Source of the DNA: a virus
DNA length: 47,160 bases
Direction: 5' to 3' (one strand)
Virus record (IMG/VR): IMGVR_UViG_3300037071_007186
Location: 1 to 47,160 of that record
The notes under the pieces were generated by a model, which saw only the letters and a program-made list of their open reading frames with translations, was not told the origin of the DNA and did no database searches. Numbering within the stretch: position 1 is the stretch's first letter; every line of letters starts with the position of its first letter. Position numbers and translations under genes: made by a program. Shown here in pieces: positions 1 through 43,310 of this stretch.

Positions 1-126
1 ACTCCTCGTGGAAGATGGAAAAAACACATCATTGTTGAGATGTCGGGATTATAAATGTTTGGGTTACGGTCAAAGTCGATGTGGCAACCCACTTCAGCTA
101 GATTCCAGTGACTCTTGCCTACCAGT
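1..126. repeat. Terminal direct repeat, left copy
   Basis: Bases 1-126 are identical to 47032-47157; after that the right copy has ccc where the left copy has gtt. The repeat lies inside a single gene that reads through the join, so it is either the overlap of a circular assembly or a short true terminal redundancy. The reading frame is restored only when the two copies are merged, which favours a circular map. Confidence 0.9.
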
Positions 127-2517: not shown

Positions 2518-2695
2518 TCTTGATTCCTTCTCGAATTGCTTCTTCTACCGTGCGTTTAATAATTCTTGTTTGAACCACCAAACTCTTACTTTTGATTTTC
2601 TTGAATTTAATAAACCAGTCCCACTGAGCTGGTGAAAACTCTATGGTTCCATCTTGCTTAACTTTAAGCGGCGGTTTTTTAGGAAACGGTTTCAT
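2504..2695 (-). CDS. Hypothetical basic small protein
   Basis: A 63-residue, lysine-rich protein whose ATG overlaps the recombinase stop (ATGA). A Pro/Lys-rich N-terminus is followed by a central FSPAQWDWFIKF and a helical tail. It has no recognised family. Position and coupling suggest it is a real member of the operon. Confidence 0.6.
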   Translation of the reverse strand: MKPFPKKPPLKVKQDGTIEFSPAQWDWFIKFKKIKSKSLVVQTRIIKRTVEEAIREGIKNAKS

Positions 2696-3435
2696 TTTAA
2701 AACTCTAGCAATCCGATCCATATCAACTCGCACATAGCGCTGAGTCGTATTGACACTGGAATGTCCAAGCAAGGTTGCTGCATCCTTAATTCCTAAGTCA
2801 GGATGATTTGCCACCTTCGTCGCAAAGAAGGCGCGAAAATCATGCGGCGTAAACGGAGCTAAATCTCGCTTAAAGAAAAAGCGGTAAGCAACATGGTTAG
2901 TAACCAAATTTGAATCATGCTTGATCAACTTTTCTACATTGAATGGGATGCATCTTTGCTTTTGTCCTTTACCGACAACCCAGAGATAGCCATCTCGAAA
3001 ATCTTCCCAACGAACAGCTTCAGCTTCGCTAACCCGAAGGCCAGCCTCACCCATCAGGATTAGCAGATTGAACATTCGAACGTTCGTCTCTCTATACGAA
3101 TCACAGAAACGTTCATACTCTTCTTGTTTTAATCTTCGCGTTTTTTCGCGGTAACAATTCTTAAATGCCGCACGTTGCTTTTTGAGGAACTCCGCGTAAC
3201 GCTGGGTTCCGAATCGCTCGTGCTCAAACTGGGAGGCCAAGATGAAGTAGATTTGTAGTGTGTATCTTCCGAGTCCGCTATGTTTGAGACTCTTAAAGTT
3301 TCGATCAGGACTATCCCAATGAGTGCTAAGGGTATTAAGCTTATAACGAGTAGAGCGGCAAGTAGTAGGGCTCCAAAGATCTCGTTTAGATTCAACATAG
3401 CTCTCAATTTCTTCCTTCAATAAGTTGTTGCTCAT
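2692..3435 (-). CDS. Tyrosine recombinase (XerC/D-like), second recombinase of the phage
   Basis: A 247-residue phage integrase-family enzyme that cuts and rejoins DNA through a tyrosine. All catalytic residues are visible: R134 (GLRVSEA), K156 (GKGQK), H198 and R201 (PHDFR), H225 (LLGHSS) and Y234. The N-terminal core-binding half is short, and there is no arm-binding domain of the type in the integrase at 37354. An AGAGG ribosome site precedes the ATG. A promoter with an operator dyad lies just upstream. It is unlinked to attP, so it may resolve genome dimers or act on another site instead of driving integration. Confidence 0.88.
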   Translation of the reverse strand: MSNNLLKEEIESYVESKRDLWSPTTCRSTRYKLNTLSTHWDSPDRNFKSLKHSGLGRYTLQIYFILASQFEHERFGTQRYAEFLKKQRAAFKNCYREKTRRLKQEEYERFCDSYRETNVRMFNLLILMGEAGLRVSEAEAVRWEDFRDGYLWVVGKGQKQRCIPFNVEKLIKHDSNLVTNHVAYRFFFKRDLAPFTPHDFRAFFATKVANHPDLGIKDAATLLGHSSVNTTQRYVRVDMDRIARVLK

Positions 3436-5630: not shown

Positions 5631-6468
5631 TTTTCTTTTTCCTTTTTAACTGCTTTGCTTCCTCAGCATGCTGTTGAAACGAATCTTTGAAACGAACGAC
5701 GATGGGATCGATGTACTCAGCCATGCCCTTGATGACTGGCTCCCACTTGCGGGATCTAACATTTTCTTGGTACCAAAGTTCTCGAAGACACATCAGCCGT
5801 ACAAACAGGTCTTGCTCAGTTACACTGCCGCCCTTAAAGAAAGTGTCGAGCGTGTGCATCATAACTTTGCCGCCATCAGCGATTTTGCTTTTGCTATCAG
5901 CTCCGCCTAGGACGAGAAGTTTTTCACTTCCATCAGACAAGCCCATCTCTTGAAGCATGTGCTTGTAAGCTGATAATTGAATGAATGCTTTTGATTGAAC
6001 GGAGCCGGTCTTTAAATCTGCTACATAGGCTTGGCCGTCAACCTTCAAGCGAAGGTCCATCGTTCCACCAAAGCGATAAGTGCGGCTAAACAAAACGCGC
6101 TCACTATCGATCAATTCAATTTCATGTGAGGCCTTGAAAGCATCCCAGCTCTCAATGCCGCGAATCATATCTTCTTTGAGTTCAGCATCTGGAAACTTTA
6201 AATTCTTAAGGTCGTACTCAACCCATTTATGTAATCGCGAACCCAAGTCAGAGACGCGGTTCATATATTCTTTGTGAGCTCCGATTGGATCAAGCTGTCC
6301 GCCAAACTCTTTCAGAGCCCAAGTGATTAAGAAATCACCTCCGCCTTGCATGGATAGGATCTGGCTGACTGAAATATACAGATCGCCCTTTGATAGGTCG
6401 GGCTTATCTTTGTAGAAAATCTGATTGCCTTCTTTGTCGAGAAGATAAGCGTTGTAGTGTGTTGCCAT
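5623..6468 (-). CDS. PD-(D/E)XK exonuclease, Cas4/RecB type
   Basis: A 281-residue protein with the full RecB-type nuclease signature: LGSRLH with H80, D138 in GGTMDL, D151 and K153 in VADLKTG, and the Q164/Y168 motif IQLSAYKH. Such phage enzymes degrade DNA ends to give single strands for recombination or to supply nucleotides. No Cas4 cysteine cluster is seen, so RecB/lambda-exonuclease-like is safer than Cas4. The C-terminus is strongly basic (KRKKK). The start is fused to the upstream stop (TGATG). Confidence 0.8.
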   Translation of the reverse strand: MATHYNAYLLDKEGNQIFYKDKPDLSKGDLYISVSQILSMQGGGDFLITWALKEFGGQLDPIGAHKEYMNRVSDLGSRLHKWVEYDLKNLKFPDAELKEDMIRGIESWDAFKASHEIELIDSERVLFSRTYRFGGTMDLRLKVDGQAYVADLKTGSVQSKAFIQLSAYKHMLQEMGLSDGSEKLLVLGGADSKSKIADGGKVMMHTLDTFFKGGSVTEQDLFVRLMCLRELWYQENVRSRKWEPVIKGMAEYIDPIVVRFKDSFQQHAEEAKQLKRKKKNV

Positions 6469-6800
6469 CAGCTTTTGAATCCCAATTCTATTGCGAGAAT
6501 ATCGATTCGGCAGGAATAATCTGCAAATCCTGGAGATAGGCTGGGTATTGGAAAAGAACTTTTACTAAAAGCCTTTTGTAGTTGGCTTCTAGTAATCTCA
6601 ATCTTCTCTTCTTCAACTTCCCAATCAGTGGCAAGAATGTCGTCTGGAGTGAGAAACTGAAGTCCTGTTCCGTAATTTAAAGTAGCTGCTGAATTATAGA
6701 GCTCGCTTGGCTCAACAAAACCAAACGGATGACGAACACAGTAGGGAGGATCATTGCGGCGAATCTTACGGCCGCTTCTCATTGCTTCTTGAATGGTCAT
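6468..6800 (-). CDS. DUF2829/Tad2-like small protein
   Basis: A 110-residue protein. It opens with TIQEAMRSGRKIRRND and has LTPDDILATDWEVEEEKIEI in the middle, matching a common phage family in which a short beta-rich domain ends in a DWE motif. Thoeris anti-defence 2 (Tad2, which sequesters the gcADPR signal) belongs to this broad group. The relation is by pattern only, and many members have no known role. It overlaps both neighbours by 1-4 bases. Confidence 0.45.
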   Translation of the reverse strand: MTIQEAMRSGRKIRRNDPPYCVRHPFGFVEPSELYNSAATLNYGTGLQFLTPDDILATDWEVEEEKIEITRSQLQKAFSKSSFPIPSLSPGFADYSCRIDILAIELGFKS

Positions 6801-7555
6801 TTAGCCTTCCTCAAAATCTCAAGGAGTAACTCAGACTGCCATATATAAGCATTTTCACGGGCGGCGGCGTAGGCGGAGGCGTAGGCGGAGGCGGAGGCGG
6901 CGGCGGCGGCGTCGGCGGAGGCGTAGGCGGAGGCGGAGGCGGAGGCGTAGGCGGCGGCGTCGGCGGCGGCGGCGGCGGCGTCGGCGTAGGCGGCGGCGTC
7001 GGCGGAGGCGTAGGCGGAGGCGGCGGCGGCGGCGTCGGCGGAGGCGTAGGCGGAGGCGGAGGCGTAGGCGGAGGCGGCGGCGGCGTCGGCGGCGTCTCTC
7101 GCTTCTTTCCACTCAACGACTGGAACTTCTAATCCAATCAATCGCGCTTCATAGAGATCAGAAACTCTTTGAATAACTTCAATTTGCTCTTCAGTTTTTG
7201 CGTATTGAATTACGCCTCCAACTGGATCAGTTAAAAGACGTGATGCAAACTCATCCCAAACTTTTGATAAATCAGCGCCTAGTTTAATAGCTTTTAAAAA
7301 TCTTTCAGGCCAAGTTTTAGCTAAAGCAAAAGGAAGACCTTCAAAAATAGTATCTTCCAATCTCGCGATGATTCTTGGGATTCCTAATTCAGTTTCATAG
7401 TTTTGATGCTGGCTGCTATGAATCGTACAGCCTACTGCGCAACCCTTTCCCTCTTCCCAATATTTGCCTTTTACAATCTCATCAGCTTTTGCATGAGCTC
7501 GAACACGGGTTAAATAAGTTTTTTTAATTTTTGAGTCGTTATGAAAAGCTATCAT
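6797..7555 (-). CDS. Conserved phage protein with a hypervariable Ala-rich repeat domain
   Basis: A 252-residue protein. Residues 1-165 form a conserved domain with HAKADEIVKGKYWEEGKGC, a CAVGCTIHSSQH Cys/His stretch and LEDTIFEGLP, a pattern I know from many phage and bacterial proteins of unknown function. Residues 165-232 are almost only Ala, Asp, Ser and Tyr, encoded by a hexanucleotide-like repeat, followed by a short helical end. I choose ATG 7555 (TGATG overlap, with GGAGGG upstream) over the TTG one codon earlier. Confidence 0.75.
   Translation of the reverse strand: MIAFHNDSKIKKTYLTRVRAHAKADEIVKGKYWEEGKGCAVGCTIHSSQHQNYETELGIPRIIARLEDTIFEGLPFALAKTWPERFLKAIKLGADLSKVWDEFASRLLTDPVGGVIQYAKTEEQIEVIQRVSDLYEARLIGLEVPVVEWKEARDAADAAAASAYASASAYASADAAAAASAYASADAAAYADAAAAAADAAAYASASASAYASADAAAAASASAYASAYAAARENAYIWQSELLLEILRKAK
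6859..7095. repeat. Degenerate hexanucleotide GGCG(G/T)(A/C) repeat, about 237 bp
   Basis: The stretch is built from units such as GGCGGA, GGCGGC, GGCGTA and GGCGTC in irregular order. It is in frame with the 252-residue protein on the minus strand, where it encodes Ala-Ser/Asp/Tyr dipeptide-like repeats. Its G+C content is far above the rest of the phage. Changes by six bases keep the frame. Confidence 0.9.
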
Positions 7556-7830
7556 CAATTAATCCCTCCAAAGTAGCGAGTGTGAAACTGAACATCGGCC
7601 CAAGCCTTGCCTCGCTTCTCACAACTGAAGTAGCCACTATCTACAAACTTCCAGCCAAGCGGCGCTTCCAAGTCTGTTGCCTCAGGAAGCGAACCAATTA
7701 AACTCTTTAAAGTTTCTCTTAGAGTTATGTAGCAAGAATCGCATCGCCCATCGTCAGGATTAAGATAGATTAAATAGTTTTTGTTTAGTCCGCAAGCATG
7801 ACAGCGGTATTTGCTTGAATCTCTGCTCAT
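7555..7830 (-). CDS. Small zinc-finger-like protein
   Basis: A 91-residue protein with CHACG (residues 10-14) and CDSC (30-33), a typical four-cysteine zinc site, then a helical segment and an aromatic C-terminus. Partner and role are unknown. It is joined to both neighbours by 1-4 base overlaps. Confidence 0.7.
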   Translation of the reverse strand: MSRDSSKYRCHACGLNKNYLIYLNPDDGRCDSCYITLRETLKSLIGSLPEATDLEAPLGWKFVDSGYFSCEKRGKAWADVQFHTRYFGGIN

Positions 7831-8042
7831 TTGGAACTCTCTGTGTATGAATTACTGCTGCTATTATTTAAGCCGACCAACTTACCGCGCTTGTTAAAGT
7901 TAAAGTCACAATCTTTGATGCTGTGAACTCTTACCGTTCCAGCTTCAATAGCTTCCCTAAAAATGTATTGCGGATCAGTAAAAGTGATTGGCTTAAGTCC
8001 CCTTCTTTTTAGAAGGCTGAGAAGTATTTCTTCATCGCTCAT
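7827..8042 (-). CDS. Hypothetical protein
   Basis: A 71-residue protein with a helical start (SDEEILLSLLKRRG) and a Ser/Asn-rich end. No family recognised. ATGA and 4-base overlaps with both neighbours support it as an operon member. Confidence 0.6.
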   Translation of the reverse strand: MSDEEILLSLLKRRGLKPITFTDPQYIFREAIEAGTVRVHSIKDCDFNFNKRGKLVGLNNSSSNSYTESSK

Positions 8043-8311
8043 CGGGCCACATCCTGGTTGGGATCAAACTCAACCATGTGATAGCTGCGAACGAGACTCA
8101 GCTTCGTCTTGCCGCACTTAAGCTGCTGACGAATCTGATTGCGATCAGTCATCGTTGTGCCAAGTGTTTGGCAGGGATTCCCCGCAAGATCACGCAACTC
8201 TTGAAATGCTTCTGTCTTCTGAAAAGTAACTGTCTGGTTTGACCGGCCAAAGAAGTAGCCAGCAAACAAACCAAGCACAGCAATAATGACTAACTCGTAG
8301 ATGTGTCTCAT
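8039..8311 (-). CDS. Small membrane-anchored protein
   Basis: A 90-residue protein with one N-terminal membrane segment (ELVIIAVLGLFAGYFFG) and a soluble C-terminal part containing two cysteines, probably facing the periplasm. I choose ATG 8311, preceded by a GGGAGAGGGAG purine stretch; an in-frame GTG at 8338 would fall at the expected transcription start. It is the first gene after the promoter at 8345-8373. Confidence 0.65.
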   Translation of the reverse strand: MRHIYELVIIAVLGLFAGYFFGRSNQTVTFQKTEAFQELRDLAGNPCQTLGTTMTDRNQIRQQLKCGKTKLSLVRSYHMVEFDPNQDVAR

Positions 8312-8373: not shown

Positions 8374-8592
8374 TCACTCCTGACCTATGAAAAAGGCAAG
8401 GAATTCGGCTTGGTTAGCGGGCCAGACATTAGCTAGCTTTTTGGCGTGCTTCTCGCACCGAATGCGCCCCTCGCTCTCGCGGGCACAGACCAGGCAGTTT
8501 AATAACCAACGCTTTAGAGGACTCTTCGCGGCCAGATCTTTCAGAGCTTGAAGTTGCTGTTCGCGGTTTGGCTTGACGGGAGGTTTTCGCAT
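8374..8592 (-). CDS. Small Cys/His protein overlapping its upstream neighbour
   Basis: A 72-residue basic protein with CLVC (residues 34-37), then C and H in RCEKH, a plausible zinc site. It overlaps the 3' end of the 8429-9118 gene by 164 bases in another frame. The Cys/His arrangement suggests this frame is the functional one over the shared stretch. Confidence 0.55.
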   Translation of the reverse strand: MRKPPVKPNREQQLQALKDLAAKSPLKRWLLNCLVCARESEGRIRCEKHAKKLANVWPANQAEFLAFFIGQE

Positions 8593-9118
8593 TCTCTTTC
8601 ACTTTCAGTTTCTTGCCGTTGCGCCATCTCAAGTACTGAATGTAAGAAATCGTAAAGACTTCTCCAGTTCCAAAGAATTCAACGTCAACGTGGTTAGGTT
8701 TATCTAGTAAGTTGATGCGGGCTAGAGCTCTGGTCCCCGGTTCGACTAGCTTCGGGTGTCTCAGTCTCAGATCGATCCTCTTAGGCTTAATTCCCCTATG
8801 CCAAGAGATGCCATGCACTCTGGTTCGATGGAGAAACTCTAGCTGTTCGAAGTAGTACTCACTGCGCTCACTTAGCCAATCGAGATAGAAGTCTAGTGAC
8901 ATGACGAGCTTCTCTTCGAAAGGTTTATCCCAGACATCGCCGTAACCAAGCACAGCTCGGTAAAAGTCTCCTCCCATGTACTGAAAGGAGTTGAAGTAGT
9001 AGATTGGGTTCTCGTAAAGCTGGCCGTAAGCTGTCAGGCCGTACGGGTGCAGTTCAACAGTGATAGCTCGATGTTTATCAAGCTCGTAATGATCAAAGGG
9101 ATGTTCAAATGTTCTCAA
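8429..9118 (-). CDS. Hypothetical protein with long overlapping tail
   Basis: A 229-residue protein starting at TTG 9118; no clear ribosome site. Residues 1-170 look well folded, rich in Tyr/Phe/Trp. From about residue 175 the protein becomes Arg/Ser/Lys-rich with low complexity, exactly where it overlaps the 72-residue gene. The tail may be a by-product of the overlap or a disordered extension. No family recognised. First gene of the leftward operon from the promoter at 9147. Confidence 0.6.
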   Translation of the reverse strand: MRTFEHPFDHYELDKHRAITVELHPYGLTAYGQLYENPIYYFNSFQYMGGDFYRAVLGYGDVWDKPFEEKLVMSLDFYLDWLSERSEYYFEQLEFLHRTRVHGISWHRGIKPKRIDLRLRHPKLVEPGTRALARINLLDKPNHVDVEFFGTGEVFTISYIQYLRWRNGKKLKVKENAKTSRQAKPRTATSSSERSGREESSKALVIKLPGLCPRERGAHSVREARQKAS

Positions 9119-9146
9119 GCGCCAAGCGAGTAGTAGTGTTCTTTTA

Positions 9147-9175
9147 ACTCTAACAGATTAGGTTAAGATTGTCAA
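9147..9175 (-). promoter_or_regulatory. Leftward early promoter
   Basis: TTGACA (9170-9175), a 17-base spacer ending in TGT, and TAGAGT (9147-9152). It shares the spacer end with the other early promoters but has no TGACA/TGTCA dyad. It faces away from the rightward promoter at 9665. Confidence 0.65.
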
Positions 9176-9179
9176 CAGG

Positions 9180-9660
9180 CTATAGCCTATAAAATCAGCT
9201 GCTTATTATCGGCTATGGCCTTCGCCGTCAGCCGCACCCTGGCACTGTAGGTGCCCGGTGCTAGCTTGTAGTTTATAGTTTAGACTCAACTCTCAACCAA
9301 ACTTCGCGGCGCCATTGATCGCCGTTTGCTATACTGGAGACAAGCCCCCGCTCTAGCTGCTAATCCCCACAAGGGGTGTGTAAACAACACACCCCAAGCG
9401 GGTGAGTATCAGATAATCTCTATAGCTATAGCTAATCAGATTATCGCTTATCGATAATCGATAATCAGCTTAGCTAATCTAGCTAGTAGCTACGTTAGTA
9501 GCTACTCAGCTATAGCTAATCAGCTTAACGATAATCAGATAATCAGCTTAGCTATAGCTATCCCCTATCCTAGTCCTACTCCCACTCTAACCTTCAGTTA
9601 GCTAGCTGCTAATCCCACCAATCAATCTAATCATGGCGCGCACCGGCAGGTGCGCCAGCC
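9180..9660. other. Divergent intergenic region; candidate replication origin
   Basis: No gene. The left half (9200-9400) stacks hairpins: CGGCT/AGCCG (9210-9234), GCACC-CT-GGCAC/GTGCC-C-GGTGC (9234-9261), CGGCG/CGCCG (9307-9324), and the 9-bp GGGGTGTGT/ACACACCCC (9373-9381, 9387-9395). The right half (9410-9570) is AT-rich and made almost only of AGCTATAGCTA, AATCAG, CGATAATC and TAGTAGCTAC units, several in direct repeat. A last hairpin GCGCACC/GGTGCGC (9638-9655) precedes the rightward promoter. Iteron-like repeats next to hairpins beside the primase-helicase operon suggest an origin; this is inference. Confidence 0.5.
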
Positions 9661-9664
9661 CGTC

Positions 9665-9693
9665 TTGACAGTTATGACAGTTTAGGTTACGAT
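9665..9693 (+). promoter_or_regulatory. Rightward early promoter
   Basis: TTGACA (9665-9670), a 17-base spacer, and TACGAT (9688-9693). TGACA-GTTA-TGACA (9666-9679) differs from the operators elsewhere by having the second half in direct orientation. Transcription would start about 12 bases before the GGGAGGAGAG ribosome site of the 9712 gene and serve the primase-helicase operon. Confidence 0.7.
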
Positions 9694-9711
9694 CAAAGGG
9701 AGGAGAGACAC

Positions 9712-9921
9712 ATGAAGAGTTTAGGTTGGGCAGAGATGGCTATTGGTTTAGAAGATGAAGAACGTTTGCTGAAGCGAAAGCTGATCAAACGCCCTAGACG
9801 GGCGACACTTCAAGCAGAGATTGAGCGGCCAGCGTTTGAATGCAACTGCTTGGTTCACAGCGGCCAGAAAAAGAAATGGGTAGAGCCGCGAGCCACGACC
9901 GCAGGGAGTGGCGAGCAGTGA
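9712..9921 (+). CDS. Small hypothetical protein
   Basis: A 69-residue, charged protein with a strong GGGAGGAGAG ribosome site and two cysteines (CNC). No family recognised. It overlaps the next gene as GTGA. Confidence 0.6.
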   Translation: MKSLGWAEMAIGLEDEERLLKRKLIKRPRRATLQAEIERPAFECNCLVHSGQKKKWVEPRATTAGSGEQ

Positions 9922-10262
9922 GACATCTGTATTCTTGGCGGCCTGCCTTCGGCAGACTCTATGATCACCCAGCCATTGAGATGGCTTATCCAAATGGTGA
10001 GCGAGAGCTTTGCCTAAGCGGGAAGAAGGGCGAAATTTGGGCTTTCAGTGATACCCAAGCCTGTGTGCTATGTTTTAGTCCTGTACTCGCGAATTTGGTC
10101 CGCAAACTCGCTCTAATAGCCCCTTGGCGAGGTTCTCGTAAGGGTGATGAGCAGGTTATCAAGGTCCCAAATCATATAGTTCCTAAAATCATCAAGCAGA
10201 TGCGAATTCCAACATCTCGATCATCTCAGATTAAAGCTGCCAATGCTTTTCGCAATCGTTAA
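9918..10262 (+). CDS. Hypothetical protein
   Basis: A 114-residue protein starting at GTG 9918, which overlaps the preceding stop. The earlier in-frame start at 9840 would overlap the first gene by 80 bases and adds an Arg-rich stretch, so it is less likely. Contains one CVLC pair and a basic C-terminus. No family recognised. Confidence 0.6.
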   Translation: MRHLYSWRPAFGRLYDHPAIEMAYPNGERELCLSGKKGEIWAFSDTQACVLCFSPVLANLVRKLALIAPWRGSRKGDEQVIKVPNHIVPKIIKQMRIPTSRSSQIKAANAFRNR

Positions 10263-10449
10263 ATCATTTTTATGTAGCTGGATCTTCGGCGGCCATGATG
10301 AAGAGTTGCTAGGTCGTGGCGATCTCTTTGATTCCAAGACCAAAGAGCAGATAGGCTTTGCCATTTTCTTTTACTGCGAACGTTGTTTTAAGGGACGCAT
10401 TCAGGAGCATTACTTTGACTCAAACCGAGATGCTAATCGACTGCCCTGA
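10243..10449 (+). CDS. Small protein with a Cys pair
   Basis: A 68-residue protein with a hydrophobic N-terminus and YCERC near residue 45, similar to small phage zinc-ribbon proteins (DUF1660-like layout, not certain). It overlaps the gene before it by 20 bases and the primase start by 35. Confidence 0.5.
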   Translation: MLFAIVKSFLCSWIFGGHDEELLGRGDLFDSKTKEQIGFAIFFYCERCFKGRIQEHYFDSNRDANRLP

Positions 10450-12037
10450 TTGCGATAATCTCTCAGTATCAGGACGCTACGACCCAGTCTGCTATCTTAA
10501 CGTGGACAAAGCGGTCTACTATTGCCAGCGCTGTAAAGCAACCGGACCCCTTCAGGAGGAACAGTTGGAGAACTTGAACGTTATCGATATTAAAGAGAAG
10601 CTGCCCTTTAATCCTAAAGTGTTTCAAGAATTGGAGCCACTCAATGAAGACTGCTATCGCTATCTACATACTCGGTTGCCAGGCATTGAGTCTGATAGGC
10701 TTGATCAGTTTAACTTGCGTTATCACAGCCGGTACCATGCGATTGCTATACCGACTTATCATCCAACACTTAAAACAATCCAAGGAATAAAATACCGACT
10801 CATTGCTCCGTTAGATCCCGTGACCCGATTCTTTGCCGTAAATGGGTCAGTCTTTGGCGGCTACTGGCTTCATGGCTCTAGTCCTAAACTTCTAATCGTT
10901 GAGGGTGAGCTAGATGCAATCACTGCCAAAGTGTGCGGCTTTCAAGGTTCAGTTTTGGCATTGCAGACTAATCGACTGAGTGAAGAGAGCGTTAAAAAAG
11001 TACGAGCATTTAAGAATATCTTTCTTGCTCTTGATAATGATGAAGCTGGCATTCAGGGAGCTGAATCAATTAAAGCTATCCTTGGTAACTATCGCGTTCC
11101 GGTCTCTATCCAAATGCCGAGTGATACAAAAGATTTAAACGAAATGCTTCAGAAAGATGGGCGCTATGTCACAGAAAACTTCATCAAAGAACAGACGAAA
11201 ACTGAAGTCGAAAAGAAAACCGTTACAGCTAGCTCAAGACAGTCAAACATCGTCGAGTTCCTTAAGAACAAAGAAGCCATCAAAGGTAAGTCTACAGGAT
11301 GGGCAAGTCTTGATCGAATATTCGCAGGCGGATTACGACCTAAAGAGTTCACTGTTCTTAACGGATTTTTCAAACGCGGTAAAACTACCGTTCTTACCAA
11401 CCTCACGTTCAATATGGCACTCAATGGAGTTCGCTGTGCTATCTCGTCTTTTGAAATGGACGGTGACACTCAACTCTTTCCTAACTATTTGTCGCTCGCG
11501 CTTGGTTCAGATGTTACGCAACTCCCTATCGAGAGAGTTGATTCGACCATTAAAGGATTATTACAAGACCTCCCAGAGTTAAACAACATCGCTATCTTCA
11601 ACAATTACGGCAAAACTACAAGAGCTGAAGTTGAAGAGTGGCTCCGCCATATAGCTAAAGAAGGCTACGAGGTTGTCGTCTTAGATCACTCCGGCTTCAT
11701 GCTTGAAGAGCCTGGCAATGCAAATGAGAATGAAAAGCTGGCAGAGATGCTGGCATCACTTGCTAAAGAATTAAACATTCATTTGATCTGTGTTGTGCAA
11801 AGCCCGAAGCCTTCGAAGGATAGAACTGGAAGTTATGTGATGGAGTTGAGTGGATTGACAGCTCATGGCGGAACTAGCTGGGCTAAGTATTGCTCTAACT
11901 TCTTAACACTCTCAGTCGACTTCGACTCAGCAGTTACTAAATTGGCATTGAAAGAAGCTGGCCGCAATCGATGGACCATACGAGATGAGGAAGTATGGCT
12001 CAGCTATGAACGAGAGACGGGCCGCTTAGTAGAGTGA
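10415..12037 (+). CDS. Primase-helicase, T7 gp4 type
   Basis: A 540-residue replicative enzyme that unwinds DNA and makes RNA primers. In order: an N-terminal zinc ribbon (C10, C13, C37, C40), a Toprim domain with VEGELDA (about 162-168) and LDNDEAG (about 206), then a DnaB/RecA-like helicase with Walker A FFKRGKTT (about 318-325) and Walker B VVVLDHS. I choose TTG 10415 because AGGAG sits 7 bases upstream; ATG 10430 would also keep the zinc ribbon. It should work with the Pol A at 45181. The terminal gene of the rightward early operon. Confidence 0.88.
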   Translation: MTQTEMLIDCPDCDNLSVSGRYDPVCYLNVDKAVYYCQRCKATGPLQEEQLENLNVIDIKEKLPFNPKVFQELEPLNEDCYRYLHTRLPGIESDRLDQFNLRYHSRYHAIAIPTYHPTLKTIQGIKYRLIAPLDPVTRFFAVNGSVFGGYWLHGSSPKLLIVEGELDAITAKVCGFQGSVLALQTNRLSEESVKKVRAFKNIFLALDNDEAGIQGAESIKAILGNYRVPVSIQMPSDTKDLNEMLQKDGRYVTENFIKEQTKTEVEKKTVTASSRQSNIVEFLKNKEAIKGKSTGWASLDRIFAGGLRPKEFTVLNGFFKRGKTTVLTNLTFNMALNGVRCAISSFEMDGDTQLFPNYLSLALGSDVTQLPIERVDSTIKGLLQDLPELNNIAIFNNYGKTTRAEVEEWLRHIAKEGYEVVVLDHSGFMLEEPGNANENEKLAEMLASLAKELNIHLICVVQSPKPSKDRTGSYVMELSGLTAHGGTSWAKYCSNFLTLSVDFDSAVTKLALKEAGRNRWTIRDEEVWLSYERETGRLVE

Positions 12038-36051: not shown

Positions 36052-36226
36052 ACTCCTTGATAAGCCTAACTTGATCCCAGATCTCGATGCCAAGTCTTCT
36101 CGCTTTAGCAATTTTCGATTGAGAAGGACTATCTCCGATAATTAAGACATCGGTTTTCTTTGTCAGTTTTGACTGAAGTGATCCCCCTAGATTTTCGATT
36201 AAGCGTTTAGCTTCATCGCGGTTCAT
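36041..36226 (-). CDS. Solo BRCT-domain protein
   Basis: A 61-residue protein matching the body of the BRCT domain as in bacterial NAD-dependent DNA ligase: RDEAKRLIENLGGSLQSKLT, TDVLIIGD, SKIAKARRLGIEIWD. The first strand of the domain is missing and there is no ligase, so it is trimmed. It may bind DNA ends or a host protein. Coupled to the NeuB-like gene by ATGA. Confidence 0.75.
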   Translation of the reverse strand: MNRDEAKRLIENLGGSLQSKLTKKTDVLIIGDSPSQSKIAKARRLGIEIWDQVRLIKELES

Positions 36227-36933
36227 CCTCGCACCTTTCCTAACTCTTCAATCGTCACAGCGAAGCGCGCATCAGGACAGCTTCTGATGTCGGTCTCAGG
36301 CAAGCGGACATGCTTCTCAATAATCTTCGCACCTGCAGCTATAGCACGTTTGGTCTGGCGCGTGCCAAGAGTATGATCAGAGAAACCATCGAAGCGTGGT
36401 TCGCCTCGAGAGACCAGCGCTCCTTCAGACGTTCTCGCCGTTCCGAATAGCATGTCGAAATCTACTTCGTAGCGAACGGGATATTCGGGGATGCAATAGA
36501 GATGAAACTCACTACTTAAATTATCCTCATCAGTCATGACATCGCAGCTAGTTAATGAAGAAATCTCAGCTGCATAAAGTTCATGTCGCCAGTCTTCTTT
36601 ATGTTTTTTGCTGTAACTCAGTTTAATGAATATTGGATTCAAGCGAAGTAAGAACTGAAAACTCTCTTCATCAAAAACGCTAGCCGTTAGCGTTAGTCCC
36701 TTCCCATTCGCATACTCAAATGCCCGCAAGAACATCTCTTGTGGAAGGTGAATGTTGGTTGGAACGTAAGGCTCTTGATCGGGGAACAACTGAAGTTTCA
36801 AAGCATCGATGCCATAGAAGACACACTCATCGACAGCCCGTTTGATATTCTCAAGCTTACCGAGATGACAGCTGCCAAACTCTGCAATTAAGTACGGCTG
36901 GCCATCAGGCCGCAAGAAGGGATTAGTGAACAT
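36223..36933 (-). CDS. NeuB-like sialic-acid-type synthase, barrel only
   Basis: A 236-residue NeuB-family protein. Typical marks: PYLIAEFGSCHLG near the start, DALKLQLF, FSDHTLG and AKIIEKHVRL. NeuB/PseI/LegI enzymes condense phosphoenolpyruvate with a C6 amino sugar to a nonulosonic acid and are about 340 residues with a C-terminal SAF domain; this one lacks that domain and is shortened, so activity is uncertain. ATG 36933 follows GAGGAGG. Its coding context differs from a full nonulosonate operon: no CMP-synthetase is present. Confidence 0.72.
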   Translation of the reverse strand: MFTNPFLRPDGQPYLIAEFGSCHLGKLENIKRAVDECVFYGIDALKLQLFPDQEPYVPTNIHLPQEMFLRAFEYANGKGLTLTASVFDEESFQFLLRLNPIFIKLSYSKKHKEDWRHELYAAEISSLTSCDVMTDEDNLSSEFHLYCIPEYPVRYEVDFDMLFGTARTSEGALVSRGEPRFDGFSDHTLGTRQTKRAIAAGAKIIEKHVRLPETDIRSCPDARFAVTIEELGKVRG

Positions 36934-37081
36934 AGACCTCCTCGATTCTCGGAAAGGGCCGTTTAAGGATGTGCGTCGGGAGTGGCTCCCTTGCAGCAAG
37001 CTCGACGTATTGGGAATACGCCTCAGGAGGAAGCTTGAAGATAGTTAGAACTATAGCCAAAAGTACCCACTCCCATCGCAT
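36923..37081 (-). CDS. Small protein at the start of the NeuB operon
   Basis: A 52-residue protein with a short hydrophobic N-terminus (WVLLAIVLTIF). ATG 37081 is 6 bases after the -10, so the mRNA would be leaderless; an in-frame TTG at codon 8 has GGGAG upstream. The tail overlaps the NeuB start by 11 bases. Confidence 0.5.
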   Translation of the reverse strand: MRWEWVLLAIVLTIFKLPPEAYSQYVELAAREPLPTHILKRPFPRIEEVYVH

Positions 37082-37087
37082 TATTCC

Positions 37088-37116
37088 ATCTTAACAGTTT
37101 ATGACAGTTATGTCAA
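37088..37116 (-). promoter_or_regulatory. Leftward promoter with operator dyad
   Basis: TTGACA (37111-37116), a 17-base spacer, TAAGAT (37088-37093) with TG ahead. The dyad TGACA-GTTA-TGTCA (37102-37115) is base-for-base identical to the one at 45170-45183. Confidence 0.75.
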
Positions 37117-37291
37117 TTGACGCGGGGCTGCATTATTGGGGCGTTATTGGGAGCAGTAAAAGACCCTGATTAAGTATCTGAATTCCTGATACAAATGATA
37201 AATGATCTGTGAGTCACTTCAAAACGACAAAGCGGCTCATTAGGCCGCCTAGATGCGTTTAAATCGTTTTTGTTTAGTTCATTCCCTTACC

Positions 37292-37333
37292 TTTGGGAAC
37301 TAGGGGTTGGAGGTTCAAATCCTCTCACTCCGA
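37292..37333 (+). other. attP core: 3' half of tRNA-Pro(UGG)
   Basis: The 42 bases read as tRNA-Pro from the anticodon loop (TTTGGGA, anticodon UGG) through the 3' anticodon stem, variable loop GGGTT, T arm with TTCAAAT, and acceptor strand CACTCCG plus discriminator A. Upstream bases do not continue the tRNA (no matching 5' stem), so it is not a gene but the phage copy that restores the host tRNA-Pro on integration. The integrase gene ends 20 bases away. Confidence 0.85.
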
Positions 37334-37353
37334 TGCTTATTCTCCCCTTATAA

Positions 37354-38493
37354 CTAACTTACAGAGTGAATCAGTGTCAGATGAGGTCTCGTTGAATCCT
37401 CGATTATTGGGAAAGTATTGGGAGCTAGAGGGGCCACAAAGCTCACGCGTCCTGCCTGGCTGCGAACATGGTCCATTGCCAAGTGGGCGTAGCGTGCTGT
37501 GGTCTCGTAGTTTGAATGTCCCAAAAGTTTCATCAGGTCATAGATAGAACCGCCGTTCATTACAAAATGAGAAGCGAAGGTGTGGCGAATCGTGTGAATC
37601 GCTATTCTTCGATTCATCCCAGCAGCTGATTGATCTTTGTTAAAGTTCAATCTGACTTGCTTGTAGATGAGGGGGTTTCCATCCTTTCGACAAAAGACAT
37701 AATGACTATCGTGACTTTGAAGAACCTTCTGAAGCGTGCTCTTTAAAGACACACTCATCGGAAGATATCTAATCTTTTTAGTCTTAGTCGTTTCGAGCAA
37801 TTTGTTAGTGATTCGGCACCAATTACGGCGAACGGTAATCAAGCCATCTTGAAGATTAATGCAATCTCGTTGGAGAGCGATAATCTCAGAGATTCGCATC
37901 CCACTCTCATAGGCAAATTGATAGAGAGCAAAGCGGTCAGTTTTGTTGAGAAAGGCCCAGTTAAGAAATTGCTGAGACTCTTCCCTAGACCAAAAGTCCG
38001 TCTTGCCTTCATTGTCTTTAAACCACTCAACTGAATTGAGAGGATTAGATCCTACATAGTGAAATTTGAGGGCCATCTTAAAGAGGGTCGAAAAAACCGT
38101 ATGAGCCTTGTTAGCTCGGTTTGCACTCATGCCGTTAGCGACAAGTTTAGACAGAAAGTCAGAAGCCGATTGCTCAGAGATGTTGCTGAGCTTGCAAGAT
38201 CCAAAGCGTGGCTCGATGTGCTGTTTAAACAGCCGGCGGTAATCTACTGAAGTACCGTCAGTCACCTTTCGGTTAGGCCAGTAAACTTGTTCAAAGAACT
38301 CAGTCAGAGTTACGTCTTTACCTTTGAGACGGCCGACTTCGCCGTTATCAATCGCAATCTCTTGTCTCTTTAACCAGCCATCAGCATCACCCTTGCGTTC
38401 AAAGGTTTTGCTTTTTAGCGCGCGATTTTGATGCCAGAGAACGGCTGTGTAGCGCGTCTCACCTTTAGAAGTTTTCTTTTTTATGATTGCCAT
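37354..38493 (-). CDS. int: Phage integrase (tyrosine recombinase)
   Basis: A 379-residue integrase with an N-terminal arm-binding domain (RYTAVLWHQNRALKSKTF), a core-binding domain and the catalytic domain: R in ESGMRISE, HTIRHTFASH with HxxR, LLGHSN and Y in TARYAHLA. ATG 38493 follows AAGGAG. It lies beside attP, so it should integrate the phage at host tRNA-Pro. Overlaps the excisionase-like gene by 29 bases. Confidence 0.92.
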   Translation of the reverse strand: MAIIKKKTSKGETRYTAVLWHQNRALKSKTFERKGDADGWLKRQEIAIDNGEVGRLKGKDVTLTEFFEQVYWPNRKVTDGTSVDYRRLFKQHIEPRFGSCKLSNISEQSASDFLSKLVANGMSANRANKAHTVFSTLFKMALKFHYVGSNPLNSVEWFKDNEGKTDFWSREESQQFLNWAFLNKTDRFALYQFAYESGMRISEIIALQRDCINLQDGLITVRRNWCRITNKLLETTKTKKIRYLPMSVSLKSTLQKVLQSHDSHYVFCRKDGNPLIYKQVRLNFNKDQSAAGMNRRIAIHTIRHTFASHFVMNGGSIYDLMKLLGHSNYETTARYAHLAMDHVRSQAGRVSFVAPLAPNTFPIIEDSTRPHLTLIHSVS

Positions 38494-38722
38494 CAGTGGG
38501 CTCCTTTCTATTGAAAGAAGCGACCCACAGATCAATTTTATCTTTATCAAAGCGAATTAGTTTTGGCCCGATGCGCTCAACGTCAATCATGCCTTTATCT
38601 ACCCATCGATAGATGGTTGGCACGCTGACATTCAGATACGAGGCAACTTGTTTCGCTGATAGAAGTTTTTTTGAATTGTCAAAGAACTGACTATTTAATT
38701 TTAAGTTTTCCATAGCTAACAC
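38465..38722 (-). CDS. Excisionase-type HTH protein
   Basis: An 85-residue protein with a MerR/excisionase-like winged HTH: LLSAKQVASYLNVSVPTIYR, WVDKGMI, KLIRFDKDKIDLWV. It is upstream of int, so may control excision direction or int expression. GTG 38722 lies 4 bases after AGGAAAGGGA; ATG 38713 is the alternative. A weak promoter (TTGTAA, TAAAAT) can be seen at 38787-38810. Confidence 0.75.
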   Translation of the reverse strand: MLAMENLKLNSQFFDNSKKLLSAKQVASYLNVSVPTIYRWVDKGMIDVERIGPKLIRFDKDKIDLWVASFNRKEPTDGNHKKENF

Positions 38723-38810
38723 TGGGTCCCTTTCCTGTCGAGCCCACTTCCAACACAAACCCTCGGAGCAACTTTATTTTATCACTTTTCGGGTGTTTAC
38801 AAGGGGCTTG

Positions 38811-39248
38811 CTAGAAGCGGCGAGTTAGGCGTTTAAACTCATTTTGTTTAGACTTTTGTATAAAACCAAAATGGCGGTGTAACTTAAGTGACACCTTATT
38901 GGCGCTATGGACTAACGCATTGATCTCATTCAATTCAAGCTGCCTTGCATAAAGCAAAGCGAGTTGAAGCATCACTTTACTTAGTCCTTTCTTAATTAAA
39001 GAAGGCTTTAAATAGAATGACCAAAAACCATCACGATCTATCTTGATGAATCCGGCCCGTCGTCCTTGGTATTCGAAGATAAGGCGGCAAAGATCGCTAT
39101 GATCAGCACACCAATCCAAATGCTCGCGATGAGAAATTGTCGAACGATCTCTACTAAATAATCGTACTGTTTCATGGTTTCTCCAAGTCAAAATGAGATT
39201 GAAATCAGAACGCTTCAATGGACGTAATTTAAAATTCAGGATCTTCAT
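38811..39248 (-). CDS. PseH-like GNAT N-acetyltransferase
   Basis: A 145-residue acetyltransferase with the PseH/RimJ pattern: LRPLKRSDFNLILTWRN, EHLDW, AGFIKIDRDG, KKGLSKVMLQLALLYA (acetyl-CoA loop), NKVSLKLHRHFGF. PseH acetylates the amino sugar before nonulosonate synthesis. Its start is inside the previous gene. The first genes of the cassette that also holds Maf-like and PseB-like proteins. Confidence 0.75.
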   Translation of the reverse strand: MKILNFKLRPLKRSDFNLILTWRNHETVRLFSRDRSTISHREHLDWCADHSDLCRLIFEYQGRRAGFIKIDRDGFWSFYLKPSLIKKGLSKVMLQLALLYARQLELNEINALVHSANKVSLKLHRHFGFIQKSKQNEFKRLTRRF

Positions 39249-39495
39249 CTGAAGCCAGAAATTGTTGTGCAACGATATCTTGCCGAATGGCTGCGAGAAT
39301 CGTTTCAGTTGTGCCGATAACTTCCCACTCAAGGCCCCAAGCTTGAAATTCCATCATGGTGTCTTGTCGTTTAACGACAACAATCAAACTCTCCAGATCA
39401 TCCAGAGTCAGACTCGCAACTTGGTCTTGAATCTCTTTAAGCTGTTCCTTGCCGATGCGGCGAGCTGGGTCAAAATCAATTATTTTATTAGACAT
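39229..39495 (-). CDS. Hypothetical protein
   Basis: An 88-residue acidic helical protein (VASLTLDDLESLIVVVKRQD). No family recognised. Overlaps the next gene by 16 bases and the acetyltransferase start by 20. Confidence 0.6.
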   Translation of the reverse strand: MSNKIIDFDPARRIGKEQLKEIQDQVASLTLDDLESLIVVVKRQDTMMEFQAWGLEWEVIGTTETILAAIRQDIVAQQFLASDEDPEF

Positions 39496-39788
39496 AAAGC
39501 TAACGCTCCCCCGACTACGGTGAATGAGACGGCAACAACAAACACATCAAGCATTCGGTGTCTCACTTGTGATGCACGCTGCTCTCGAGCTATCTCAGCT
39601 GTTCGTGTTTGAACCGACGAATGAGCTACTTCTAAAGACCAGAGTTGTTGCTCTAGCTTGCTTAGCCGTTCCTCTTGCTCACCAATCACGTTAACGAGCT
39701 TTGATGTTTGCTGCGTAAGTGCTGTCACAAACTCTCTAAGAAAGATGTGATCTTTGGATTCCTTTAAAATCTCAGCCGCTTCCCTCAT
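39480..39788 (-). CDS. Coiled-coil protein with C-terminal membrane anchor
   Basis: A 102-residue protein: charged coiled coil (about 25-75) and a C-terminal membrane helix (VFVVAVSFTVVGGALALCLI). Layout resembles the gene at 5361-5630. Role unknown. Confidence 0.6.
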   Translation of the reverse strand: MREAAEILKESKDHIFLREFVTALTQQTSKLVNVIGEQEERLSKLEQQLWSLEVAHSSVQTRTAEIAREQRASQVRHRMLDVFVVAVSFTVVGGALALCLIK

Positions 39789-41575
39789 GCATGTTCCTCC
39801 AAAATCTTGTTTAGACGTTCGAGAACTGAAATGAATAATTCGAACCGCGCTTTGATGATTCGCAGTTTCTTAGGCAAGTCTTCGGTGTACTGCGAACTAA
39901 ATGACCACCACTTGTTTTCGAGTTCGAAGAACTCTCGAGCGCAGCATTGAACAACGAACGAAATAAAGAGAGTTTCAGTTACAAAGCGAAAGTTAAAAAG
40001 GAACATCAAAACTTCATATCGATCCGTATCAACTTGATCGCCTTGCTTCAAAAGTTCTTCAGTTTCAACTAGCCCGTCTTTTGCAGTCTCTAACCAGCTT
40101 GCTAAATTCTTCTTTAAATCCTTGTGTTCCCAAAGACGTGAATAACTGGCCTTAGGAGGAACGGGTTTTGCCGTTTCCAGAACGGGCAAATTCTCCGTCG
40201 CATCCGCCAAAGAATGATAGGGAACGCCTTCAATCTTCAAACCAATCGCAGAGCAATTAATGAAGATGATTGTCTGACCAAGTAAAGCCATCTCTTCAGA
40301 CAACTCTTTGATCCATTGATAATAAGTAATGTTAGTCATTGCTGGCTCACCTAGATTGTTGAGAGCTGGCAATGAAGGTGCGTGACCGCGTTTAGTTTCA
40401 AACTCCTCAAGAGGAAGCGGAGTTGACCACTCAGGATAGCCAGTGCCAGAGCAATGAGAACGATAGAGATTCTCGCCAACTTTCTCGTAAGAGCTATCAA
40501 GTCCAACAAGCAAGACTTTGCGACAGCCCATATAGCCAGCTAGACGAATACCAAGATGAGACGCAGAACCGCCACATTTCAGGATTCCTTTTGGATAGCT
40601 TTTTTCAAAGTAAGCAAAGAAGGAATAGTTTCGATAAACCAAACGAATCGTGCCTGGGAATGCTTCAAGCACTTCAGGATGTACCACTGGAAAAGCAATA
40701 AGCTCTGCTCCACTGTCAGTCGTTCCTTCAAAGAACGGCTTTTGATAATCATTTAGTCTTTCAATTGAAGCGACGTAATCAACTCGAATACCTGCATTAA
40801 CTAACGGCTTGTAAGCAGCATCTGCACAGATCAAAACAACCTTATCGTTAATTTTCTTAATGGCTTCTAGGTTCTGATCAACTGACGCGCCAGCTCCAAC
40901 AATCAAAGCTGTCTTGCCAAGATAGGCATTTTTCAAATCCAAAATGCCTGGACATTTTTTGACAAATTCGCGGTTCATCATGGTGGCTTCTAGACCCTGA
41001 AGAGAGTCAGCCGCATTGCCGTGATTATGCATCACATGGTGGACGGTCTCATTGTAGATAGCTGGAACAACGCCGTAGTAATCTTCAAAGCCTTTCGATG
41101 AAAGAGCATCGACAGTCAAAGCTTGAGCATTGCGCATCAAGCTCGTCACACCTTCAGGCCGTAAGGCCATAAACAGATTCGGTTTAACAGTCTCAACCGT
41201 CTCGCATAAGAACCATTCAGTTTTTGGGAACATGATGACCTGAGTTAGATCAGCGCTCTGAAACATCCAGGCAAGGAAGGCTGGGTTCTGCTCAAAAAAG
41301 AAAACCTTAAAGTTCTCTTGCTGAACAGTTTGATCGTTTAAGATCTTCGGAATAAAAAGAGGTGAGCCAATCCCACAAACCAAAAGCACTCTCATAGGAG
41401 GTTGAGAAGGGGCTGGAGGTAGTTCGATATCCTCTAAAGGAGGAGCTGAGGTTACTTCTGCTCGCAAGATTGGCTCAAGACGGGCCTGTTCATGGGGGTA
41501 CCGATAGAACAAGGCCTTCAAATTGTTTTCTAGAACTTTGTTAATATGATGCTTAGGTAGAATCAATTCACTCAT
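39785..41575 (-). CDS. Maf/DUF115 (MptE-like) glycosyltransferase-like protein
   Basis: A 596-residue protein of the motility-associated-factor family. The nucleotide-sugar-like core reads ALIVGAGASVDQN, then CADAAYKPLVNAGIRVDYVA and GGSASHLGIRLAGYMGCRKV, LLVGLDSSY. Maf proteins add pseudaminic or legionaminic acid to flagellin in several Gram-negative bacteria; the wider DUF115 group also includes 6-hydroxymethylpterin pyrophosphokinases. Full length. Close to PseH- and PseB-like genes, which favours a glycan role, but flagellin as acceptor is not shown. Confidence 0.75.
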   Translation of the reverse strand: MSELILPKHHINKVLENNLKALFYRYPHEQARLEPILRAEVTSAPPLEDIELPPAPSQPPMRVLLVCGIGSPLFIPKILNDQTVQQENFKVFFFEQNPAFLAWMFQSADLTQVIMFPKTEWFLCETVETVKPNLFMALRPEGVTSLMRNAQALTVDALSSKGFEDYYGVVPAIYNETVHHVMHNHGNAADSLQGLEATMMNREFVKKCPGILDLKNAYLGKTALIVGAGASVDQNLEAIKKINDKVVLICADAAYKPLVNAGIRVDYVASIERLNDYQKPFFEGTTDSGAELIAFPVVHPEVLEAFPGTIRLVYRNYSFFAYFEKSYPKGILKCGGSASHLGIRLAGYMGCRKVLLVGLDSSYEKVGENLYRSHCSGTGYPEWSTPLPLEEFETKRGHAPSLPALNNLGEPAMTNITYYQWIKELSEEMALLGQTIIFINCSAIGLKIEGVPYHSLADATENLPVLETAKPVPPKASYSRLWEHKDLKKNLASWLETAKDGLVETEELLKQGDQVDTDRYEVLMFLFNFRFVTETLFISFVVQCCAREFFELENKWWSFSSQYTEDLPKKLRIIKARFELFISVLERLNKILEEHA

Positions 41576-42363
41576 TAGTGCCCCACTCTCAACGATTCTC
41601 GCTTTTCAGCTGTTAAAAGATTCACTCGTCCAACGTGCTCCGCACCACATCCGCTGCATGAATAGCGTTGATATTTACCAACACTGCGATACGTGCTCCC
41701 ATTTTTAATCATTTTTGTGCTACCGCAATTACAGCGAAACTGAAGTTCATCAGTGTAGGCGTGAAAGTTAATCGATGAATCCCAAGGCTGAAGTTTGTGA
41801 TAGAGCTCTTCTAAAGAGAGAACGTCGTACTTGTTGTAGCGTTCCATTTCTTTCCACGCTTTGAGATTGCCCTTTAAGCATTCGTTCCAAAGTTGATGGC
41901 CTGGAAACTTAGTATGCTTAAGCTTGCGATACTTAGTACAAAGCTTGTCAGTCATGTACTCAAGCTTGTTGCTCGTGAAAGCAAACTTCCTAGATGCAAT
42001 TTGCTTAGTATCGATGTGTTTGAATGAGCTAGGAGGTTTAAATCCCTGAAGAATAAAACGGGCATTCAACTTCTTAACGTCGAAAGCTTTGCCGTTTTGC
42101 GTAATGACAATATCGGCTTCATCAAGAAGCTTCCAAATGCCTTTTAGAATCTTGCGATCATCTTCAACGTTCTTAGCGCGACGTTGATCCATGTACATCG
42201 TCTTAGATGCGGGATCGCCAAGCCATTTAGCAGCCCAAGCGAGAACGTGCCAATCAGACTGGATTTGATTGAGACCGACATTATTCTCCCAAAGACCCCA
42301 AACGTGTCCAAGGATAGGCGCTGTCTCAATATCGAAAATTAAAACTTTAGGTTTATTGCTCAC
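41575..42363 (-). CDS. DnaQ-like 3'-5' exonuclease with C-terminal zinc ribbon
   Basis: A 262-residue protein. The RNase H-like exonuclease has FDIET near residues 10-14, GKAFDVKKLNARF and YNKYDVLSLEEL. The C-terminal 60 residues carry CNCGS and CSGCG, a zinc ribbon of the transposase-associated type. GTG 42363 overlaps the preceding stop and has GGAGAG upstream. It is separate from the exonuclease domain of the phage Pol A, so it may process other ends. Confidence 0.78.
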   Translation of the reverse strand: MSNKPKVLIFDIETAPILGHVWGLWENNVGLNQIQSDWHVLAWAAKWLGDPASKTMYMDQRRAKNVEDDRKILKGIWKLLDEADIVITQNGKAFDVKKLNARFILQGFKPPSSFKHIDTKQIASRKFAFTSNKLEYMTDKLCTKYRKLKHTKFPGHQLWNECLKGNLKAWKEMERYNKYDVLSLEELYHKLQPWDSSINFHAYTDELQFRCNCGSTKMIKNGSTYRSVGKYQRYSCSGCGAEHVGRVNLLTAEKRESLRVGH

Positions 42364-43310
42364 AAACTCTCCACCAAACTCTTTAACTCTGCTTGCGTTA
42401 GCCATTCTTCGTTCGAATCAGATGAGTAACGAAACCCATCTCTCATCGGATAGCCGACATGACTTTTCTGACCTGCTAACTGGAACGGTGCTTTGATAAT
42501 AAATCGATCAATCTGATCTAAAACAAACTGACTCTCATCTTCTGTGATTAAAACTTCATGCAACTTCTCACCTGGTTGTTTGCCAATGATTTGAAAAGCA
42601 GCTTCGGGAGCAATTGCTCTAGCTACATCAACCACTTTCATCGAAGGAATCTTAGGAATGAAAACTTCCCCGCCTTCCATGTCTTCAATCGCTTTAGCTA
42701 CAAATTGAACGGCTTCGGGAAGAGTAATGAAAAAGCGAGTCATCTCTTCATCAGTAATCGTTATAATTCGGCTTTCTTTTTGCTTTTTGAATAGCGGGAT
42801 AATAGAACCACGAGAGCCGAGAACATTCCCATAGCGAGCAGCGCTTACTTTCGTTCTTCCACTGAAATACTGATTCGCTTGAACGGCGATCTTCTCTGCG
42901 CAAAGTTTTGTAGCGCCGTAGAGATTAGCTGGATTAACAGCCTTATCAGATGAGATGACCATGACCTTAGGAACGCCAGCTTTAATAGCCGCACTAACGA
43001 CGTTCTGAGTGCCGAGAATGTTGGTCTTGATTGCTTCAAACGGATTGTACTCGCAAGCATCTACTCTCTTCATCGCAGCGGCATGGATGACCAAATCAAT
43101 TCCATCCATTGCCTGCTCAAGACGGGCTTCATCTCTTACATCGCCAACTAAGAAGCGAAGTCGCTTGTCGTTAAACTTCGCTTTCATCTCGCTTTGCTTC
43201 AGCTCATCTCGGCTGAAGATGCGAACCACTTCGGCATAGTTTGTCGTCAAAGCATAATCGACAAAGGCATTGCCGAACGAGCCTGTGCCACCTGTGATTA
43301 GAATTCTCAT
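42360..43310 (-). CDS. PseB/LegB-type UDP-GlcNAc 4,6-dehydratase
   Basis: A 316-residue short-chain dehydrogenase/reductase. NAD site GGTGSFG (residues 7-13), active-site SSDKAVNPANLYGATK with YxxxK, and the sugar-binding MTRFFITL typical of the PseB/FlaA1 inverting dehydratases. These convert UDP-GlcNAc to a 4-keto-6-deoxy sugar, first step toward pseudaminic or legionaminic acid. Length is normal. The partner aminotransferase (PseC) is not in the phage. Confidence 0.82.
   Translation of the reverse strand: MRILITGGTGSFGNAFVDYALTTNYAEVVRIFSRDELKQSEMKAKFNDKRLRFLVGDVRDEARLEQAMDGIDLVIHAAAMKRVDACEYNPFEAIKTNILGTQNVVSAAIKAGVPKVMVISSDKAVNPANLYGATKLCAEKIAVQANQYFSGRTKVSAARYGNVLGSRGSIIPLFKKQKESRIITITDEEMTRFFITLPEAVQFVAKAIEDMEGGEVFIPKIPSMKVVDVARAIAPEAAFQIIGKQPGEKLHEVLITEDESQFVLDQIDRFIIKAPFQLAGQKSHVGYPMRDGFRYSSDSNEEWLTQAELKSLVESL

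Follow-up and report, generated by a model that had tools for sequence, protein, structure and literature searches.

The noncoding gap between two divergently transcribed gene blocks of a 47,160-base IMG/VR virus contig (hereafter the window, i.e. the whole stretch of DNA that was analysed) contains an array of short self-complementary words together with perfect hairpins. Its location and structure are conserved in related phages while its sequence is not, and the word vocabulary of the array is replaced in two of them (L029 and G015). We give an even chance to the interpretation that the gap serves both as a rapidly evolving origin of replication and as a divergent control region. Reading it as a candidate origin fits best because the gap is noncoding, divergent and adjacent to a primase-helicase gene, is dense in palindromes and hairpins, and keeps its place without keeping its sequence. 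The same features would suit a regulatory array.

Genome context and the divergent gap

An identical 126-base repeat occurs at both ends of the window (1–126 and 47032–47157), and the contig of one relative (G006) likewise has a terminal overlap of ~127 bases. Because of these terminal repeats and overlaps, both contigs are probably circular assemblies, that of the window representing a complete or nearly complete genome. Pfam and PHROG scans indicate that the window encodes a PolA-type polymerase, exonucleases, a thymidylate kinase, a GroES-like protein and a RuvC-like resolvase in addition to the primase-helicase (Table 1). The PHROG match of the portal is weak, and the terminase and capsid protein were named via homology to annotated genes of phage MW202601. 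The protein scans identified no phage RNA polymerase, and none of the unassigned ORFs has the length needed for one. The window also contains two tyrosine recombinase genes: a small one (2692–3435) that lies beside the thymidylate kinase gene and is conserved in the relatives G001 and G006, and a large one (37354–38550) found in neither of them. In a genome-contig search for the host, the only match was a distant one to a Pelagibacteraceae MAG.

The gap (9119–9711) lies between ORF 8429–9118 on the minus strand and ORF 9712–9921 on the plus strand, and is bordered by a conserved early block on the minus strand and by a plus-strand block headed by a small gene and the primase-helicase gene. The product of the adjoining minus-strand gene (p8429) has homologues with 40–48% identity in L027/G001 and 37–41% in L116/G006; its AlphaFold model is poor (pLDDT 52) and unsuited to structure search. 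Searches of Pfam and PHROG returned no family for this protein or for the other gap neighbours (9712–9921 and 9840–10262), and no initiator gene is recognised among them.

Table 1. Features of the gap and adjoining genes (positions are those of the window; promoter and operator entries are consensus matches only)
Feature	Position	Strand	Basis
First gene of the minus-strand early block, adjoining the gap (p8429)	8429–9118	−	Conserved in relatives
Promoter-like boxes TTGACA-17-TAGAGT, TG before the second box, minus block	9147–9175	−	Consensus scan
Left copy of the word common to both promoter regions, TAACAGATTAGGTT, candidate operator	9151–9164	+	12 of 14 bases identical to 9675–9688
Imperfect hairpin, 9 pairs including 2 G-U	9239–9264		Fold/hairpin scan
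Extended −10-like box TGCTATACT, aimed into the array	9327–9335	+	Consensus match; chance expectation 0.2–0.9 per strand
Perfect 9-bp GC-rich hairpin GGGGTGTGT-AAACA-ACACACCCC	9373–9395		Hairpin scan
Array of short self-complementary words TAGCTATAG, GATAATC, AATCAGCTTA and GTAGCTAC; 35% GC	9405–9561		Word counts, palindromes
Whole array as a single imperfect hairpin of ~140 nt	9422–9561		RNA and DNA folds, both strands
Perfect 8-bp hairpin	9439–9459		Hairpin scan
Apical perfect 9-bp hairpin AGTAGCTAC-GTTA-GTAGCTACT	9485–9506		Hairpin scan
GC-rich hairpin, core GCGCACC-GGCA-GGTGCGC; 7 bp perfect at 9638–9655, 8 bp with one G-U	9634–9657		Hairpin scan
Promoter-like boxes TTGACA-17-TACGAT, plus block	9665–9693	+	Consensus scan
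Right copy of the shared word, TGACAGTTTAGGTT, candidate operator	9675–9688	+	12 of 14 bases identical to 9151–9164
Small first gene of the plus block	9712–9921	+	Similar genes in the same place in L027 and L029 (SLGW..., C-x-CL-x-H), read off translations without statistical alignment
DNA primase-helicase, T7 gp4-like (Toprim and DnaB C-terminal domain)	10358–12037	+	PHROG 239, E 3.9e-47; Pfam DnaB_C, Toprim

A reading made from the sequence alone (hereafter the sequence-only reading) had placed the region between divergent promoters. Outward-facing boxes are indeed present on both sides (Table 1), but the number of promoter-like sites in the region is not above chance (3 vs 2.1 expected in the scan). 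Words analogous to the candidate operators occur at both gap ends in L027 (TGACA..TGTCA) and L029 (ATTAGGTAAATTAA), and L027, L029 and L116 each have a plus-strand extended −10-like box, similar to that of the window, on the left side of the gap. In addition, L027 has good −35 and −10 boxes, and in L029 only, a textbook intrinsic terminator (3117–3135) closes the right end of the gap. These calls, too, are consensus matches only.

A palindromic array with perfect hairpins

All short words that the sequence-only reading had named in an array of ~150 bases are present, and the longer ones (AGCTATAGCT, AATCAGCTTA and GTAGCTAC) are absent elsewhere in the record. Recurring 6-mer pairs at 9405–9560 number 203, compared to 49 ± 11.5 in dinucleotide shuffles (maximum 102, n = 500), and recurring 8-mer pairs number 94, compared to 8.7 ± 5.2. 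No other noncoding part of the 47-kb record is as repetitive as the array, and only a coding stretch at 6797–7558 (Ala-rich, with GGCGGA repeats) is more repetitive. The description 'unlike any coding stretch' thus applies to the type of words but not to the degree of repetition.

The repeats are mainly palindromes or inverted repeats, with 10 palindromes of at least 8 bp compared to 3.6 ± 2.0 expected. Iteron-type origins consist of several direct repeats of ~17–22 bp that are regularly spaced in helical phase, with a cognate Rep initiator encoded nearby. In the window, copy spacings are irregular (48, 55 and 23, also 84), and autocorrelation peaks at 42, 29 and 48 with no helical period of 10–11 or 21–22 bp. 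A strict iteron origin is ruled out by this irregular spacing and missing period, and the term 'iteron-like' has to be dropped, also because no initiator gene is recognised.

The region proved to be hairpin-rich, as had been claimed, with perfect hairpins of 9, 8 and 7 bp. The stems of the GC-rich hairpins inside one phage are mutually unrelated in sequence. The inverted arms of the array (9422–9445 and 9538–9561) are 24 nt long and 92% complementary. Folding of the 489-nt gap gives z-scores of −8.5 (plus strand) and −7.2 (minus strand), and no window in the record folds better than 9361–9520 (dE −38 vs −14 for the next). The array and the adjoining hairpin are real and extreme within the record.

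Fold strength is about equal on both strands in all six elements analysed. The plus-strand fold of the window has one G-U among 98 pairs, and the other elements have up to ~12% G-U. RNA genes usually show G-U pairs on the sense strand. Since both strands fold about equally and the plus strand of the window is nearly devoid of G-U pairs, a role at the DNA level is favoured over one at the RNA level.

Conservation of place without sequence in related phages

Relatives of the phage were reached by alignment-based searches; a single-protein search with the primase found nothing, and one with the portal returned two distant fragments only. The relatives comprise L027 (G001; portal 70%), L029 (G002; 74%) and L116 (G006; terminase 62%), and, more distantly, G015 (capsid ~33%) and MW202601. 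Gene order is identical in the window, G001 and G006 (i.e. polA, cpn10, recombinase, thymidylate kinase, exonuclease, p8429, gap, primase, terminase and portal), with several small genes inserted between p8429 and the gap in L027/G001.

Comparison with these phages reveals dense hairpins at the corresponding place in L027, L029 and L116 and, more distantly, in G015 and MW202601, written in different letters. The L029 gap (2725–3262) is densely packed with GTTAGCTAAC and AACGTTAG words and with perfect hairpins; in the L027 gap (2168–2589), there are five GC-rich hairpins and words recur less strongly; and the L116 gap (2001–2697) contains GGCCGGGTC...GACCCGGCC plus a CTCTAAAC repeat. In G015/L192, the divergent gap upstream of the primase gene contains a TATAAGC/GCTTATA array, a vocabulary that differs from that of the window, and within the 13 kb examined this array ranks first for both folding and repetition. 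The element also ranks first for folding in L027 and L029 (first 9 kb), and the strongest fold window within the first 14 kb of MW202601 immediately precedes its primase gene. In L116 the element is only the third-ranked fold window and the signal is weak. No hairpin or array pattern was seen beside the primase gene in the more distant G003, G010 and L032; the pattern is therefore a feature of only part of this phage group.

Global alignment of the elements is not meaningful except for one hairpin (H2), which is alignable in L027, L029 and L116. All nine of its pairs are kept (27 of 27 cells paired) and four of the nine have changed on both sides, i.e. are compensatory; the covariation score was reached by 2 of 500 shuffles, for three sequences only and for a hairpin picked because it is alignable. 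The structure of the element thus appears to be under selection. No DNA similarity of the element to phages or plasmids was found (blastn of 9119–9711 against 50,697 phage records, no match). The exact 16-mer AGCTATAGCTAATCAG has 19 matches in viral contigs, one per contig, which we estimate to be about chance for a collection of this size.

Two further hairpin arrangements were observed. In L026 (MW202601), two adjacent hairpins directly upstream of the primase gene (2506–2584) have the same inner stem, GGTAAC...GTTACC, and carry GA/GAA-type internal loops. A contig end in L191 (1–93) consists of a tandem repeat, GTAAGAAACTGCCGCGAAGCGGCGGAGCTGA, with a perfect hairpin in each copy.

Candidate functions and comparison with known origins

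The proposal of a candidate origin, freed of its iteron component, fits the anatomy of the gap best, and the phage has its own primase-helicase, PolA and RuvC-like resolvase. Against it stand the flat GC skew, the lack of iterons and of a recognised initiator, the near-chance promoter calls, the weak signal in L116 and the missing pattern beside the primase gene of G003, G010 and L032. The range of cumulative GC skew is no larger than in block-permuted genomes for the window and likewise for G001, with no turning point at the element; in G006 it is larger (293 vs a permuted 95% value of 257), with extremes at 27.7 and 15.7 kb and the element at 32.2 kb. Given the permutation result for the window, the skew criterion by which the sequence-only reading would have rejected an origin carries no information.

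If the gap is an origin, early transcription leaving in both directions would make it negatively supercoiled, and the array might then melt or extrude hairpins or cruciforms. Rightward transcription from the box at 9327 may supply a primer or R-loop, and the phage helicase-primase could load onto the single-stranded DNA so exposed, with extension by the phage PolA. The sequence might be free to drift because melting and structure matter, or the array may coevolve with a binding protein. It is doubtful that the elements represent a phage origin family defined by architecture, i.e. by perfect hairpins and a palindromic array whose vocabulary is swapped between relatives, opened by divergent transcription and with helicase-primase loading in the absence of an initiator protein. 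Our literature search of open-licence papers found no paper on a hairpin-array origin next to a helicase-primase gene.

The first of two main rivals, an unlikely one, is that the gap is a purely regulatory divergent control region, in which a phage repressor or activator binds the words, the hairpins merely result from operators being palindromic and replication starts elsewhere. This would agree with the outward promoter-like boxes on both sides, with the words that the window, L027 and L029 each have at both promoters, with the palindrome excess and with word sets that differ between phages as operator/repressor pairs do. However, palindromes are densest in mid-gap, ~100–250 bp from the nearer promoter boxes rather than over them, the GC-rich stems within one phage are unrelated, unlike repeated operators, and no recognised regulator gene adjoins the gap. 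The second rival, less probable still, is a structured noncoding RNA of ~300 nt that would be transcribed rightwards from a promoter inside the gap and would either act in trans or prime replication. The extended −10-like boxes of four phages, the L027 promoter boxes, the L029 terminator, the very low folding energy and the covarying hairpin H2 all point in this direction, but the two strands fold about equally with almost no G-U on the plus strand of the window, the terminator is confined to L029, and a conserved loop or sequence motif is absent. Also, no Rfam family is matched at gathering score, and the best sub-threshold matches of the window are to eukaryotic miRNA and snoRNA models.

We consider it very improbable that the element is a recombination or packaging site, whether an attP or resolution site of the small tyrosine recombinase or a pac site. 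Conservation of that recombinase in G001 and G006 and the formal resemblance of short-spacer inverted repeats to recombinase core sites speak for it; yet the differing stems within one phage show that the hairpins are not copies of one core site, and the element is separated from the recombinase gene by ~5.7 kb and from the terminase gene by ~6.5 kb. Slippage can enlarge word arrays, but a functionless, neutral expansion of simple sequence is also very improbable, since five further phages have the structure at the corresponding place, and in view of the compensatory changes in H2 and the perfect GC-rich hairpins that also occur outside the array.

Among known systems, the primary origin of phage T7 is an AT-rich segment next to promoters that works with a primase-helicase of the gp4 type and a polymerase of the PolA type, and it has no hairpin array. 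The window resembles it in having an AT-rich segment beside promoter-like boxes and the same types of primase-helicase and polymerase, but differs in its hairpin array and in that the protein scans revealed no phage RNA polymerase. In phage G4 and plasmid ssi sequences, hairpins are priming sites. The cluster of perfect hairpins in the window could similarly mark single strands for primase; in contrast to these sites, the window phage is double-stranded and has its own primase.

The origins of the Ceduovirus phages of Lactococcus (c2, bIL67 and 923 types) are noncoding, promoter-flanked and located between divergent blocks; three types without intergroup similarity occupy the same place and all support plasmid replication, and the c2 origin is crossed by a noncoding transcript (PMC7150918). 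In layout, the gap of the window comes closest to these origins: it is likewise noncoding, lies between divergently transcribed blocks with promoter-like boxes on its flanks, and has sequence-dissimilar types in the same place. Unlike in Ceduovirus, both flanking blocks carry early or replication genes (polA on the minus side and primase on the plus side), the relatives are much more distant, a palindromic array and hairpins dominate, and the phage has its own primase-helicase and PolA. At most, the element would work like the c2 origins; it is no member of them by sequence because blastn found no match. The Vibrio phage satellite PLE has an iteron origin in a noncoding region between divergent operons (PMC7145576). 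The repeats of the window occupy the same kind of location, but unlike those of PLE and other iteron origins they are not regularly spaced direct repeats and have no recognised Rep protein.

To our knowledge, the origins of most environmental phages that have a gp4-type primase-helicase and lack a phage RNA polymerase are unknown. If the gap is an origin, position combined with hairpin and palindrome density would locate origins missed by sequence comparison, and a gap that changes its vocabulary and keeps its fold would be suited to asking whether DNA structure alone directs replication initiation.

Two observations concern other parts of these genomes. The repetitive coding stretch of the window at 6797–7558 has GGCGGA-type repeats that encode an Ala/Ser/Tyr/Asp low-complexity protein, and in L116 a series of several related copies lies between primase and terminase (5853–8272). 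Minus-strand genes at 36223–43310 of the window encode a NeuB-family synthase (36223–36999), an MptE-like/Maf-like protein (39785–41575) and a Polysacc_synt_2 (PseB-like) dehydratase (42360–43310), which, judging from their family assignments, possibly form a phage-borne nonulosonic-acid surface-glycan set.
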